Shown: positions 27,910 to 32,270, counted from the stretch's first letter. The stretch is DNA of 64,000 nt from Bacteroidales bacterium (GCA_035647615.1 DASRND010000036.1:62001-126000), one strand, 5' to 3'. The notes: generated by a model not told the origin, from the sequence alone. A program made the numbers and translations.

Positions 27910-29541
27910 TCACTCCTCCTTTTCGACATATTTCACGTCGCAAGGGATTTTTTCCCCATTGCCTTTTAACCTGTAAAACCTGCCTTTTTCTATCAGCAGA
28001 GCCTCGGAAAACATTTCGCTGGCGCGGATAGGAATATCGATTAAAAACACCTTTCCATCATACAGCGAAGTCATTTGCTCTACTTCGGTGTGTGCAATGA
28101 TGATTTTGTCGACGTTATAAAATTGCAGCACTCGTTCTACATATTCCTGGCTGATAAGGTCGCCAAAAACGCCATCCATCATGTATCCTCTGTACCAAAG
28201 TGGCCCCTCCCTGTTGAGCAACAGATTCATCAGGTCTGCGTCCCTACTGGGTTCATCGGGGTCGGTATTGAGATACTCTTCGATCACCGAATTGATTTTC
28301 GCCAGCGGTATCTGCTTTTCGAGCACTGCAGGAGAGATGCCGGCATGTGAAAACAGCAAATCGTTGATAGTAATGACGGCGTTGCGGCTACGCAGCCAGC
28401 GCCCCAGCACTGATGCTGTGTCGTAGAAGCTGGCATAGTCGCGCATAAAATAATTAGAAAAAAGCTCGTATTTGCGATCGATGTAGCGTGTGTCGTTTTG
28501 CATCACCATCACCTCGTGGTTGCCAAGCAACGTATTTACTCTTCCGCCCTGGTGATGTGCCTGCTGATCGAGCTGATACAGAAACCAAAGTGCTTCGGTA
28601 ACCTCATCGCCGCGATCGAAAATATCGCCCATCATCACCACATGGCCGGAGCCCCAAATCCACCGCAGCTCATTGTCGATAACTCCGTGATGTTTCATGA
28701 AATTTACCAATGCCCGATAATTGCCATGCACATCACCAAAGGCCAATATTTTGTCGACATCTTTGTAACTTGCCGGCTCTGCTTCAAAGTGTCGTGTGAC
28801 GGTATAATTTGCGGTGTCACCCGAAAAACCTTGTACCTGAACCGTGTCGCCTACAACCTCCACAAATTTTTCTTCGATCAAAAAATTACGAATCGTAGTG
28901 TCGTACTTCATGTAAAACACCCGCAAAAAGTTGTCGTTGAGCCATTCCATGTGCGGCCCATCAAAAGAGGCCGGAAGTTGGTTGTAATAATTTTGCATCT
29001 CGATCACATGCACCAGGTATTCGGCCATCGGCACATTGTTAGTTAAATTAGCATAATCCAGCGCGGTCAAGCCTTTGGCGTTTCTATAACCAGCGTCAGC
29101 ACCATTTTCGACAAGCATCTGCACGCACGGCATGCTCCGGTTTGTGACGGCAAAAATCAGCGCTGTATTTTTTCTCTTTGCGGTACTCTCTATATCAGCA
29201 CCCGCGCGCAGCAGCAGATTCATCATCTGGCAATCGCGGCTTTTAACAGCAAACATAAGCGGAGTTTTTCCATCAGAAATCAAATCAACATTGACATCAT
29301 TTCCAAGCAGGAACTTTACTGCAGGCGAATTTTTGTATTTGATAGAATAATTGAGCAGTGTTTTTTTCTGTCCGTCGAGGATTGCATTCACATCGCCTCC
29401 ATCAGCAAGGAAAGCAGCCAATGTTTCCGTCGAACCTTTCCTGATCGACTTTAGCACCTCCCGTTCCGAAGCCTTATCCTGTTGAGCCGGCAAAGTGAGC
29501 GTAAGCAAAAGAATTAAAAACAAAAAACTGAATTTATGCAT
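27910..29541 (-). CDS. Secreted ankyrin-repeat plus PPP-type metallophosphatase protein
   Basis: A 543-residue exported protein. The ATG at 29541 starts a signal peptide (HKFSFLFLILLLTLTLPAQ); the 52 upstream in-frame codons are not signal-like. Residues ~20-195 hold about five ankyrin repeats (KTPLMFAVKSRDCQMMNLLL, NTALIFAVTNRSMPCVQMLV, GLTALDYANLTNN). Residues ~270-530 form a calcineurin-like phosphatase with GDVHGNY, GDIFDRGD and LLGNHEVM metal motifs, closest in pattern to Shewanella-like PPP phosphatases. It lies 115 bp downstream of the CotH-like gene in the VTC/DUF4956 cluster. Substrate (phosphoprotein or polyphosphate) unknown. Confidence 0.85.
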   Translation of the reverse strand: MHKFSFLFLILLLTLTLPAQQDKASEREVLKSIRKGSTETLAAFLADGGDVNAILDGQKKTLLNYSIKYKNSPAVKFLLGNDVNVDLISDGKTPLMFAVKSRDCQMMNLLLRAGADIESTAKRKNTALIFAVTNRSMPCVQMLVENGADAGYRNAKGLTALDYANLTNNVPMAEYLVHVIEMQNYYNQLPASFDGPHMEWLNDNFLRVFYMKYDTTIRNFLIEEKFVEVVGDTVQVQGFSGDTANYTVTRHFEAEPASYKDVDKILAFGDVHGNYRALVNFMKHHGVIDNELRWIWGSGHVVMMGDIFDRGDEVTEALWFLYQLDQQAHHQGGRVNTLLGNHEVMVMQNDTRYIDRKYELFSNYFMRDYASFYDTASVLGRWLRSRNAVITINDLLFSHAGISPAVLEKQIPLAKINSVIEEYLNTDPDEPSRDADLMNLLLNREGPLWYRGYMMDGVFGDLISQEYVERVLQFYNVDKIIIAHTEVEQMTSLYDGKVFLIDIPIRASEMFSEALLIEKGRFYRLKGNGEKIPCDVKYVEKEE

Positions 29542-29656
29542 GTTCGTTAGTCCCCAATGGAAATGAGCAAAAGCAGCAGATGTGATTGATCCTTTATTTG
29601 ATTTGTAATACATCGATAAATAACTCTGTTTATGTACGATATGTTCATCAGGTGAG

Positions 29657-30730
29657 CTATTGCTTATGTTTTTCGAGACACCTGTCGATGAACTCAATCC
29701 TGATCATTGCGTCGTTTTCGATTATTTTATAAAACTTGTCGTAATAGTTTAAAGTCTCCTTTCGCCTTCGGTTGCGCAAAGGTTCAAAATTTTCGTACAA
29801 AGCATAAATCTCTGATTTTTTAGATTTAAAAAATGCAAAATTTGCTTTGTATTCTTCCATCGTCCGGCACTGTCCGCGGAAAAGCCGGTCGCTCACTTTT
29901 TCGATGTCGAATCGTGGCTGTGGCGTGGCATATTCGGCGCTGATAACACCTGCCCAGTCGAAATCGTATGGAATGGCGTAAGGTGGCTGCGCAGTGTCGG
30001 CGGCAAAGAGCTTGATGTTGTGCAGCGTGGTGACAGCCCAGTCGGTGTTGCCGATAAGATATTCGAAGATCGCCAGGCGACTCACGTAATGAAGCTGTGT
30101 GCTGTCCTGCATCAGGTATTGCTTCTTCGACTCTGTTAGTTGCAGCCGGTTCTCCAAACCACCGTCGGGCTCGATAAAGAAGGAGTAACAATGCCATGTT
30201 TTGTTTTTACGGCCTTCATCAATGTAGGTAATCAGCGCAGGTCTTACACGAAAGCTTGTATCAGTGATAATATTAAAGACACGATAAATCAGATATTCCT
30301 CCAGCACATATTGCTCGTAGTCTGCTGAGCTACGCCGGCATTGGGTAACGAGTTTTATTTTATTGATTTCTTCAAACAAAGTACCCTTTACCTGTTTTTT
30401 TTTAAAGTTGATACGGAGCGGCGGAAAAGTACAATTTTCTGCCTTTCGGCGAAAGTTGCCTCGCGTCGAAATCTTCACATCCAGCGTTACGGTGTCGGAG
30501 CTTTGGATATACTGCAACGTAGCGGGATGTTCCTGCCGCTCCTCCCCTATGTCGTCGATAATGGTTTTTAGATCGCCGCGCAGGGTAATCTGCAGCATTT
30601 CGTGCGACGAAAAAAGCGGGACCGCATTGCCTTGGCTATAATCCTGCGCTTTCGAAGATGTTGAAACCATTGCGACAAGCAACAGTAAAATCAAACCTTT
30701 CAGAGGTTTTAATAAAGGTAAGAATCTCAT
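29657..30730 (-). CDS. Secreted CotH-kinase-like protein
   Basis: A 357-residue protein with a signal peptide (residues ~1-28, ...STSSKAQ). The pattern fits the CotH family: STRGNFRRKAENCTFPPLRI (~88-107), INKIKLVTQC with a conserved Lys (~122-131), then FEYLIGNTDWAVTTLHNIKL (D230, N238) and PYDFDWAGVI (D256, D258), matching the catalytic and metal-binding Asp/Asn of CotH/Fam20-like atypical kinases. Its start overlaps the DUF4956 stop by one base. The fold call is from motifs by eye; kinase activity is inferred. The C-terminus is rich in R, K and E. Confidence 0.72.
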   Translation of the reverse strand: MRFLPLLKPLKGLILLLLVAMVSTSSKAQDYSQGNAVPLFSSHEMLQITLRGDLKTIIDDIGEERQEHPATLQYIQSSDTVTLDVKISTRGNFRRKAENCTFPPLRINFKKKQVKGTLFEEINKIKLVTQCRRSSADYEQYVLEEYLIYRVFNIITDTSFRVRPALITYIDEGRKNKTWHCYSFFIEPDGGLENRLQLTESKKQYLMQDSTQLHYVSRLAIFEYLIGNTDWAVTTLHNIKLFAADTAQPPYAIPYDFDWAGVISAEYATPQPRFDIEKVSDRLFRGQCRTMEEYKANFAFFKSKKSEIYALYENFEPLRNRRRKETLNYYDKFYKIIENDAMIRIEFIDRCLEKHKQ

Positions 30731-31434: not shown

Positions 31435-32227
31435 AATGCATTTTATTTTGCCTGATTAATAACTCTTTAAAACGGTTATGTTTGATGGTTGGATGCGTTA
31501 GCACGGTGCCAACGCAATATTTGCTGAATGGGCACGGCAGGATGCGATGCTTACGCAAAATCTTTTCGAGATCGGACAAACCTGAAGCTTTTTCCTGTTT
31601 TATCTCGGCAATCACCGGCAGCAGAAGGTTTACATCTGATGCGTTGTGGGTATAGCTCAGGTTCATATCGATGGTCGCCCGCTCGTGGTTGTGGCGGTGC
31701 ACCAGCGTGATACGTTCGAAGCGGTTGCTCAGAACCGGCTGCAGCTCCCTGGGATTGTATGATGTGATCTTTTTCAAAAATTTACGCTCCTCCTTGTTTA
31801 GTCCGGGGTTGTGATTGGTAGTGAGGATACGTTTTTTTATCGTGCGGCTTTTGTTGCTTTTAAATTTGATTTCAAAAAAAACCTGCCCCGTGGTCAGGTA
31901 TTCGCGTCGACGCACTTTGTAGCGGTTTAGCTTGCCATTGTGGTGCGCCAGATACATCTCCCTGTCCGGTGTATCGTAATAGGTGCTTTGATAAGCTAAT
32001 ATCCGGTGTCCGTCAATTTCCAGAATGCGATACCAGCGCGCAGCCTCCGAAAGGATGTCGGGCAAAGCAAACAACGGGAAGACAAATTTCCTATCAAACC
32101 GGTCGAGCAGCTTCACCTGATCCATTTCGCCAAGTGTAATTGCCTGCAAACGTGCAGCAGAATCCTGCACCTGCTGGTGGCTATTAGCAAAAAGCTGAGA
32201 CTGGTCAATTATTACCGGAGGTTTCAC
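31397..32227 (-). CDS. VTC-domain polyphosphate polymerase-like protein
   Basis: A 276-residue protein with the VTC tunnel-fold motifs: LLDRFDRKFVF near residue 50, YQSTYYDTPDREMY, a Lys/Arg-rich KLNRYKVRRREY, VFFEIKFKSNKSRTIKKR and IAEIKQEK. In yeast the same domain (Vtc4) makes polyphosphate from ATP; bacterial VTC proteins are less studied. The start is taken as GTG at 32227 because an exact -7 element TATTTTTG (minus, 32270-32263) lies 36 bp upstream and would be inside a gene starting at 32317. First gene of the cluster. Confidence 0.85.
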   Translation of the reverse strand: MKPPVIIDQSQLFANSHQQVQDSAARLQAITLGEMDQVKLLDRFDRKFVFPLFALPDILSEAARWYRILEIDGHRILAYQSTYYDTPDREMYLAHHNGKLNRYKVRRREYLTTGQVFFEIKFKSNKSRTIKKRILTTNHNPGLNKEERKFLKKITSYNPRELQPVLSNRFERITLVHRHNHERATIDMNLSYTHNASDVNLLLPVIAEIKQEKASGLSDLEKILRKHRILPCPFSKYCVGTVLTHPTIKHNRFKELLIRQNKMHYDNAIAPLYQRS

Positions 32228-32262
32228 CGTGTGTGTTTCGTTATGTTTTTTGATAAGGTGGG

Positions 32263-32270
32263 CAAAAATA
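32263..32270 (-). promoter_or_regulatory. -7 promoter element of the VTC/DUF4956/CotH cluster
   Basis: TATTTTTG on the minus strand (32270-32263) fits TAnnTTTG, giving a leader of about 29 nt to the GTG at 32227. Confidence 0.6.

Follow-up and report, generated by a model that had tools for sequence, protein, structure and literature searches.

An accessory trio of cotH, a poly-phosphate polymerase gene and a DUF4956 gene has been described beside the pel genes of Gram-positive bacteria (PMC7112168). For the trio of S. intermedius, the authors reported not finding synteny outside pel, and the DUF4956 relative SIR_1592 is described as having four transmembrane segments and an intracellular ACT domain (PMC12345266). 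The Shewanella-like group of PPP phosphatases has been named Shelph (PMC535813). Here we describe a locus of four genes in a 64,000-nucleotide stretch of DNA from a Bacteroidales bacterium (the window, positions 62001-126000 of contig 36 in a 95% complete, 3.75 Mb Bacteroidota genome), which encodes a VTC-domain protein, a DUF4956 membrane protein, a predicted exported CotH-type kinase and a predicted exported ankyrin/Shelph phosphatase. The original prediction, made from the sequence of the window, stated that VTC, DUF4956 and CotH genes cluster in other bacteria, which the two pel papers confirm, and added the phosphatase to the trio as a fourth partner, suggesting a trans-envelope phosphate-transfer system with a polymer at its heart. 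Comparison across genomes leads to a different division of the locus, in which the stable unit is best read as a pair of CotH-like kinase and phosphatase; DUF4956 often accompanies this pair, and VTC is optional. We consider it fairly probable that the locus combines a VTC-DUF4956 module with an exported kinase-phosphatase module acting on a shared envelope target, the latter module being the functional core.

Gene neighbourhoods were surveyed in 198 genomes of the window's order and in a second sample of 80 named loci, those most like the window kinase; the two samples share some contigs, and the contigs of metagenome-assembled genomes are often short. Strong phosphatase matches were found in 23/198 genomes and a CotH-like gene in 30/198, with the kinase present in 21 of the 23 phosphatase genomes compared to 3.5 expected (Fisher 3e-19, relatedness uncorrected). 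The CotH-like gene is also the recurring neighbour around the phosphatase in the order survey. Over the two partly overlapping samples there are 31 adjacent kinase-phosphatase pairs, some of them overlapping by 1 to 4 bp. The orientation within the pairs varies (kinase first, phosphatase first, one convergent and, in Woeseiaceae of the Gammaproteobacteria, four divergent), and the pairing spans several Bacteroidota lineages as well as Gammaproteobacteria. In a phylogeny of 110 kinases, 14 changes are needed to explain which of them have a phosphatase within two genes, and the neighbour labels cluster more strongly than in shuffles.

DUF4956 adjoins the kinase 23 times in several separate clades, 4 times at the DUF4956 loci of the order and 19 more times around kinase genes. 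The gene order in Marinifilaceae is phosphatase-DUF4956-kinase without a neighbouring VTC, and in Cytophagales it is DUF4956-kinase. The exact arrangement of the window is common to two related loci, L196 and L197, while a third, L198, has no linked VTC; the four form a clade with a support of 100, and all keep DUF4956-kinase-phosphatase. In L198, in Marinifilaceae and in genomes G397 and G315, DUF4956 lies beside the pair with no linked VTC seen. It is noted that the G315 contig ends soon after DUF4956, and VTC was not found in the G315 genome. Altogether VTC is absent from 11 of the 25 genomes holding a kinase-phosphatase pair, so that this unit does not require a polymer. Of the proposed trans-envelope system, the exported kinase and phosphatase are retained, but the polymer at its heart is not, and nothing in the analysis shows a transfer of phosphate across the envelope.

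Two further arrangements were observed in these neighbourhoods. In L108 (G397 contig 33), a gene for a sulfatase-family membrane protein (PF00884, 7873-9744, minus strand) lies upstream of DUF4956-kinase-phosphatase, at the place of VTC. In L278 (G447 contig 55), three tandem CotH-like genes stand beside DUF4956, and tandem pairs occur in L281 and L282.

The locus looks different when viewed from DUF4956, which is present in 86/198 genomes of the order (72 without weak matches). In the 41 DUF4956 loci read, VTC lies within three genes of DUF4956 in 38, a classical CotH gene is near it in 3, and genes for a DUF2490 outer-membrane protein and for two small exported proteins are commoner neighbours. 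The original prediction had proposed counting how often an exported phosphatase accompanies DUF4956: the count is 4/41, always with a CotH-like gene, and the CotH-like gene is found at the same four loci. In the order, VTC-DUF4956 usually occurs without this kinase and without the phosphatase, so that a role of the phosphatase as fourth partner of the trio is not supported. It does stand, together with the kinase, beside VTC-DUF4956 in the nearest relatives, L196 and L197 (and in L198 without VTC). Two candidate descriptions were rejected on this survey, namely the four genes as one conserved unit and the kinase as the usual partner of DUF4956 in the order. The low count, together with the many genomes in which VTC and DUF4956 are apart from the pair, could also mean that chance has brought the two modules together in a small clade and that their functions are unrelated, with only the kinase-phosphatase pair working as a unit. 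We regard this as very unlikely, considering the repeated adjacency of DUF4956 to the kinase subfamily in separate clades and the 1-bp overlap of the two genes in the window.

Exported proteins of the CotH kinase type are widespread in bacteria, and most of them are not known to have a target or a phosphatase that opposes them. The CotH-like protein of the window has no Pfam match of its own, and no CotH above the Pfam cut-off was found anywhere in the window's genome; PF08757 is matched by 2 of its 16 relatives, with a best value of 3e-7. A search of PDB sequences with the profile of the protein found nothing relevant, and fold comparison was needed. The structure model built from the alignment of the 16 relatives has a predicted local distance difference test score (pLDDT) of 88, and its best solved match is the B. 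cereus CotH kinase 5jd9/5jda (Foldseek 1e-9). Comparison with 5jd9 (VIA) gave Z 19.9 and a root-mean-square deviation (rmsd) of 3.3 over 267 residues, with the next family at Z 12.7. The residues of the putative active site, K126, E145, D230, N238 and D256, are identical in 118/118 relatives, and D258 is found in 117/118. D230 and D256 correspond to the catalytic and metal-binding aspartates (D228 and D251 in B. subtilis), judging by eye from the motifs of the B. cereus protein. C100 and C131 are likewise invariant in 118/118 relatives and would be suited to an extracytoplasmic disulfide. The CotH-like identity is assigned on the basis of family profile, fold and conserved residues, and the model indicates a kinase of the CotH fold whose predicted active site is intact.

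The fourth protein is matched in the PDB by the Shewanella phosphatase structures 2z72, 1v73 and 2zbm, the best at 1e-65 and all at about 5e-65 or better; the remaining PDB matches shown are to the ankyrin part. GDVHG, GDIFDRG, GNHE, HAG and the last metal-binding histidine are all present. At the site of (I/L/V)D(S/T)G, a motif common to bacterial PPPs whose third position is Val or Phe in most Shelphs (PMC535813), the window phosphatase has IDIP and its relatives mostly IDVP, the aspartate being kept and the glycine not. Inspection of the sequences and hydropathy served to predict signal peptides and membrane topology. The original prediction is borne out for both exported proteins, the kinase-like one having a signal peptide, a modelled CotH fold and all residues of the predicted active site, and the phosphatase-like one being a Shelph-type PPP with a signal peptide.

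Recurrence of the pair, location of its products and conserved active sites suggest reversible phosphorylation outside the cytoplasm. In the mechanism we propose, the CotH-type kinase and the Shelph phosphatase, both exported, would probably control how far a common target in the periplasm or outer membrane is phosphorylated, the kinase adding phosphate to it and the phosphatase taking phosphate off, while the ankyrin repeats would probably bind the substrate or a partner. As a membrane protein with a cytoplasmic domain that is linked to the pair, DUF4956 is suggested to bridge the pair to the cell interior, and this frequent third member most likely couples the cytoplasm to the kinase-phosphatase module. 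VTC and DUF4956 would form the other module, a cytoplasmic tunnel-domain polymerase plus a membrane protein, with VTC an optional component of kinase-phosphatase systems. We infer the enzyme activities, their opposition on a common substrate, a protein as that substrate, and what DUF4956 and the ankyrin repeats do.

Several points weigh against this mechanism. The activity of all four proteins is predicted, and an exported kinase requires a phosphate donor, whereas no supply of ATP is known beyond the cytoplasm. Relatedness is not taken into account in the Fisher test, and some contigs occur both in the order sample and among the named loci. No phosphatase or DUF4956 gene lies within two genes of 63 of the 110 tree kinases, some of which are on short contigs, and the kinase therefore also occurs without a linked phosphatase. 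In the window phosphatase, an alanine precedes the last metal-binding histidine, where most relatives have a glycine, and the glycine of the (I/L/V)D(S/T)G motif is missing (PMC535813). The specificities of the described proteins also differ, Shewanella phosphatase I being Tyr-specific (PMC535813) and B. subtilis CotH a Ser/Thr kinase (PMC7821199).

The VTC-domain protein matched no sequence in the PDB, and fold comparison was again needed. Its AlphaFold model (pLDDT 91) has the yeast polyphosphate polymerase Vtc4 (3g3r) as its best PDB fold match (Z 17.6, rmsd 2.8, 213 residues), compared to Z 14.2 and lower for tunnel enzymes other than VTC, and it has basic residues that are invariant in 28 relatives. 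The VTC and DUF4956 proteins are clear members of their families, and Pfam match and model both indicate the VTC tunnel-domain fold; polyphosphate synthesis is a putative activity. Hydropathy of the DUF4956 protein shows about five hydrophobic peaks in residues 1-150, followed by a soluble C-terminal domain that is predicted to be cytoplasmic. The closeness of the model to Vtc4, the invariant basic tunnel residues, the pairing of VTC with DUF4956 in 38/41 loci, and the overlapping or abutting VTC, DUF4956 and kinase genes of the window and L196 would all fit a trans-envelope polyphosphate system, in which polyphosphate would be made and exported by VTC-DUF4956, then used or trimmed by the kinase and phosphatase outside. 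We consider such a system unlikely. The idea is weakened by the many pair-bearing genomes that do without VTC and by G397, G315, L198 and Marinifilaceae, which keep DUF4956 beside the pair with no linked VTC seen; the phosphatase also resembles a protein phosphatase and not a polyphosphatase. Also conceivable, though highly improbable, is that a phosphoryl donor for the kinase is brought through the inner membrane by VTC-DUF4956, while the ankyrin phosphatase resets the target; if true, extracytoplasmic reversible phosphorylation would be supplied with a donor of its own in a place where ATP is not known to occur.

The relation of the locus to pel was also considered. A search for DUF3492 (PelF-type), the only pel marker searched, found no match in the window's genome; the same search matches 1/14 control genomes. 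The CotH/polymerase/DUF4956 trio therefore occurs in a genome without a PelF-type match and is not confined to pel clusters. In S. intermedius, mutants of the DUF4956 and CotH genes show changed Pel levels and reduced aggregation (PMC12345266), and the trio adjoins pel in Gram-positives (PMC7112168). By analogy with what the streptococcal pel trio may do, the kinase and phosphatase could regulate an envelope polysaccharide, with VTC-DUF4956 as a shared accessory. This too seems unlikely to us, given the missing PelF-type gene, the different streptococcal CotH protein, which carries an FN3 domain, and the surveyed neighbourhoods, in which no polysaccharide synthase was identified, most unlabelled neighbours not having been scanned for families. 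Our preferred reading remains that of an exported kinase-phosphatase core with a VTC-DUF4956 module.

The coordinates of the features are collected in Table 1. Calls of open reading frames (ORFs) in the window confirmed the four minus-strand genes at 27910-32270 and the originally predicted overlaps of 38 bp between VTC and DUF4956 (31397-31434) and 1 bp between DUF4956 and the CotH-like gene (TAATG at 30730), with the starts of VTC and the phosphatase corrected. The VTC start is most likely GTG 32227, because the alternative, TTG 32317, precedes the -7 element. For the phosphatase, the mechanical ORF call placed the start at TTG 29697, but ATG 29541 is the most likely one, because it alone gives an N-terminal signal peptide (MHKFSFLFLILLLTLTLPAQQ). 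TTG 29697 would create a spurious 41-bp overlap with the CotH-like gene, and with ATG 29541 the gap to the CotH-like stop is therefore 115 bp.

Table 1. Features of the four-gene locus, in positions of the window
Feature	Position	Strand	Basis
VTC-domain protein, 276 amino acids, GTG start, no signal peptide (predicted cytoplasmic)	31397-32227	-	PF09359 7.3e-24
DUF4956 membrane protein, 234 amino acids	30730-31434	-	PF16316 7.7e-54
Predicted exported CotH-type kinase, divergent subfamily, 357 amino acids, signal peptide residues 1-~28	29657-30730	-	Fold, family profile, conserved residues
Predicted exported ankyrin + Shelph PPP phosphatase, 543 amino acids from ATG 29541, signal peptide	27910-29541	-	Metallophos 2e-13, Ank_2 2e-21
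Ankyrin repeats of phosphatase, predicted exported side	29008-29439	-	Ank_2, Ank_4, Ank_5 matches, residues 86-229 of 595-amino-acid ORF
PPP catalytic domain of phosphatase	27967-28782	-	Alignment to 2z72 residues 62-326
-7 element TATTTTTG, Bacteroidota-type, candidate promoter of the four genes	32263-32270	-	Exact TANNTTTG match

The -7 element lies about 36 nt ahead of the VTC GTG. A Bacteroidota-type promoter at this site is plausible because the window contains more copies of TANNTTTG than expected (80 against 53.8, with 0/100 shuffles as high). By eye, the nearest TTG upstream of the element is 25 nt off, compared to about 19 for a well-spaced -33. The exact TANNTTTG was not found in the 115-bp gap ahead of the phosphatase gene. 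In the region, counts of sigma-70 promoters and hairpin terminators were not usefully above those in shuffles. It should be mentioned that a ten-pair hairpin followed by a T tract is present at the VTC/DUF4956 junction (31383-31405, minus strand), such sites being no more frequent than in shuffles of the region. Transcription of the four genes as an operon, likely from one promoter, is predicted.

Directly upstream of VTC, on the same strand, is a 230-amino-acid ORF of no family (32501-33193), which was considered as a candidate fifth gene of the operon. No detectable similarity was found to its positional counterparts in L196 (4369-5349) and L198 (2669-3562), and it is therefore either a fast-evolving upstream gene or a non-coding ORF. 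Beyond it, a plus-strand neighbour without assigned function (33444-34649), which recurs near the kinase-phosphatase pair in L146, L147, L196, L198 and L209, is followed by an aminotransferase class IV gene (34701-35525). A CdaA-type diadenylate cyclase gene (18509-19297, minus strand) lies about 9 kb from the four-gene locus, and in L198 a look-alike CdaA N-terminus is found two genes from the phosphatase. A 1026-amino-acid ORF on the plus strand (23620-26700) appears by eye to combine three parts, resembling a kinase at the N-terminus, a peptidase in the middle and a class III aminotransferase at the C-terminus.

The recurring linked phosphatase offers a concrete candidate for reversible extracytoplasmic phosphorylation in Bacteroidota, including cultured Marinifilaceae, and sets the kinase-phosphatase unit apart from polyphosphate. 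A pair of CotH-type kinase and Shelph phosphatase was not found in the literature searched, which covered few subscription journals and gives weak evidence of novelty. Compared with the yeast VTC complex, formed by the Vtc4 tunnel domain and the Vtc1 membrane part, the window VTC shares the modelled tunnel-domain fold and the conserved basic residues, but it has no SPX domain and its membrane partner is DUF4956 instead of a Vtc1-type domain. The same three gene families as in the Gram-positive pel trio stand together in the window, where the CotH protein belongs to a divergent subfamily and an exported phosphatase is added. With the CotH proteins of B. subtilis and B. cereus (PF08757; 5jd9, 5jda), the window kinase has in common the modelled fold and the D...N and DxD pattern (NFDGFVHN and WDYD in 5jd9, NTDWAVTTLHN and YDFDW in the window). 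Unlike the known CotH proteins, of which that of B. subtilis targets the spore coat proteins CotB and CotG, it falls below Pfam detection and has a signal peptide, two invariant cysteines and a phosphatase neighbour. The window phosphatase resembles Shewanella phosphatase I (2z72, 1v73) and the other Shelphs in overall sequence and PPP signatures, with no SAPNY seen. It differs from them in the ankyrin fusion, which its nearest relatives have as well, in reading IDIP at the (I/L/V)D(S/T)G site and in its pairing with a CotH-type kinase.

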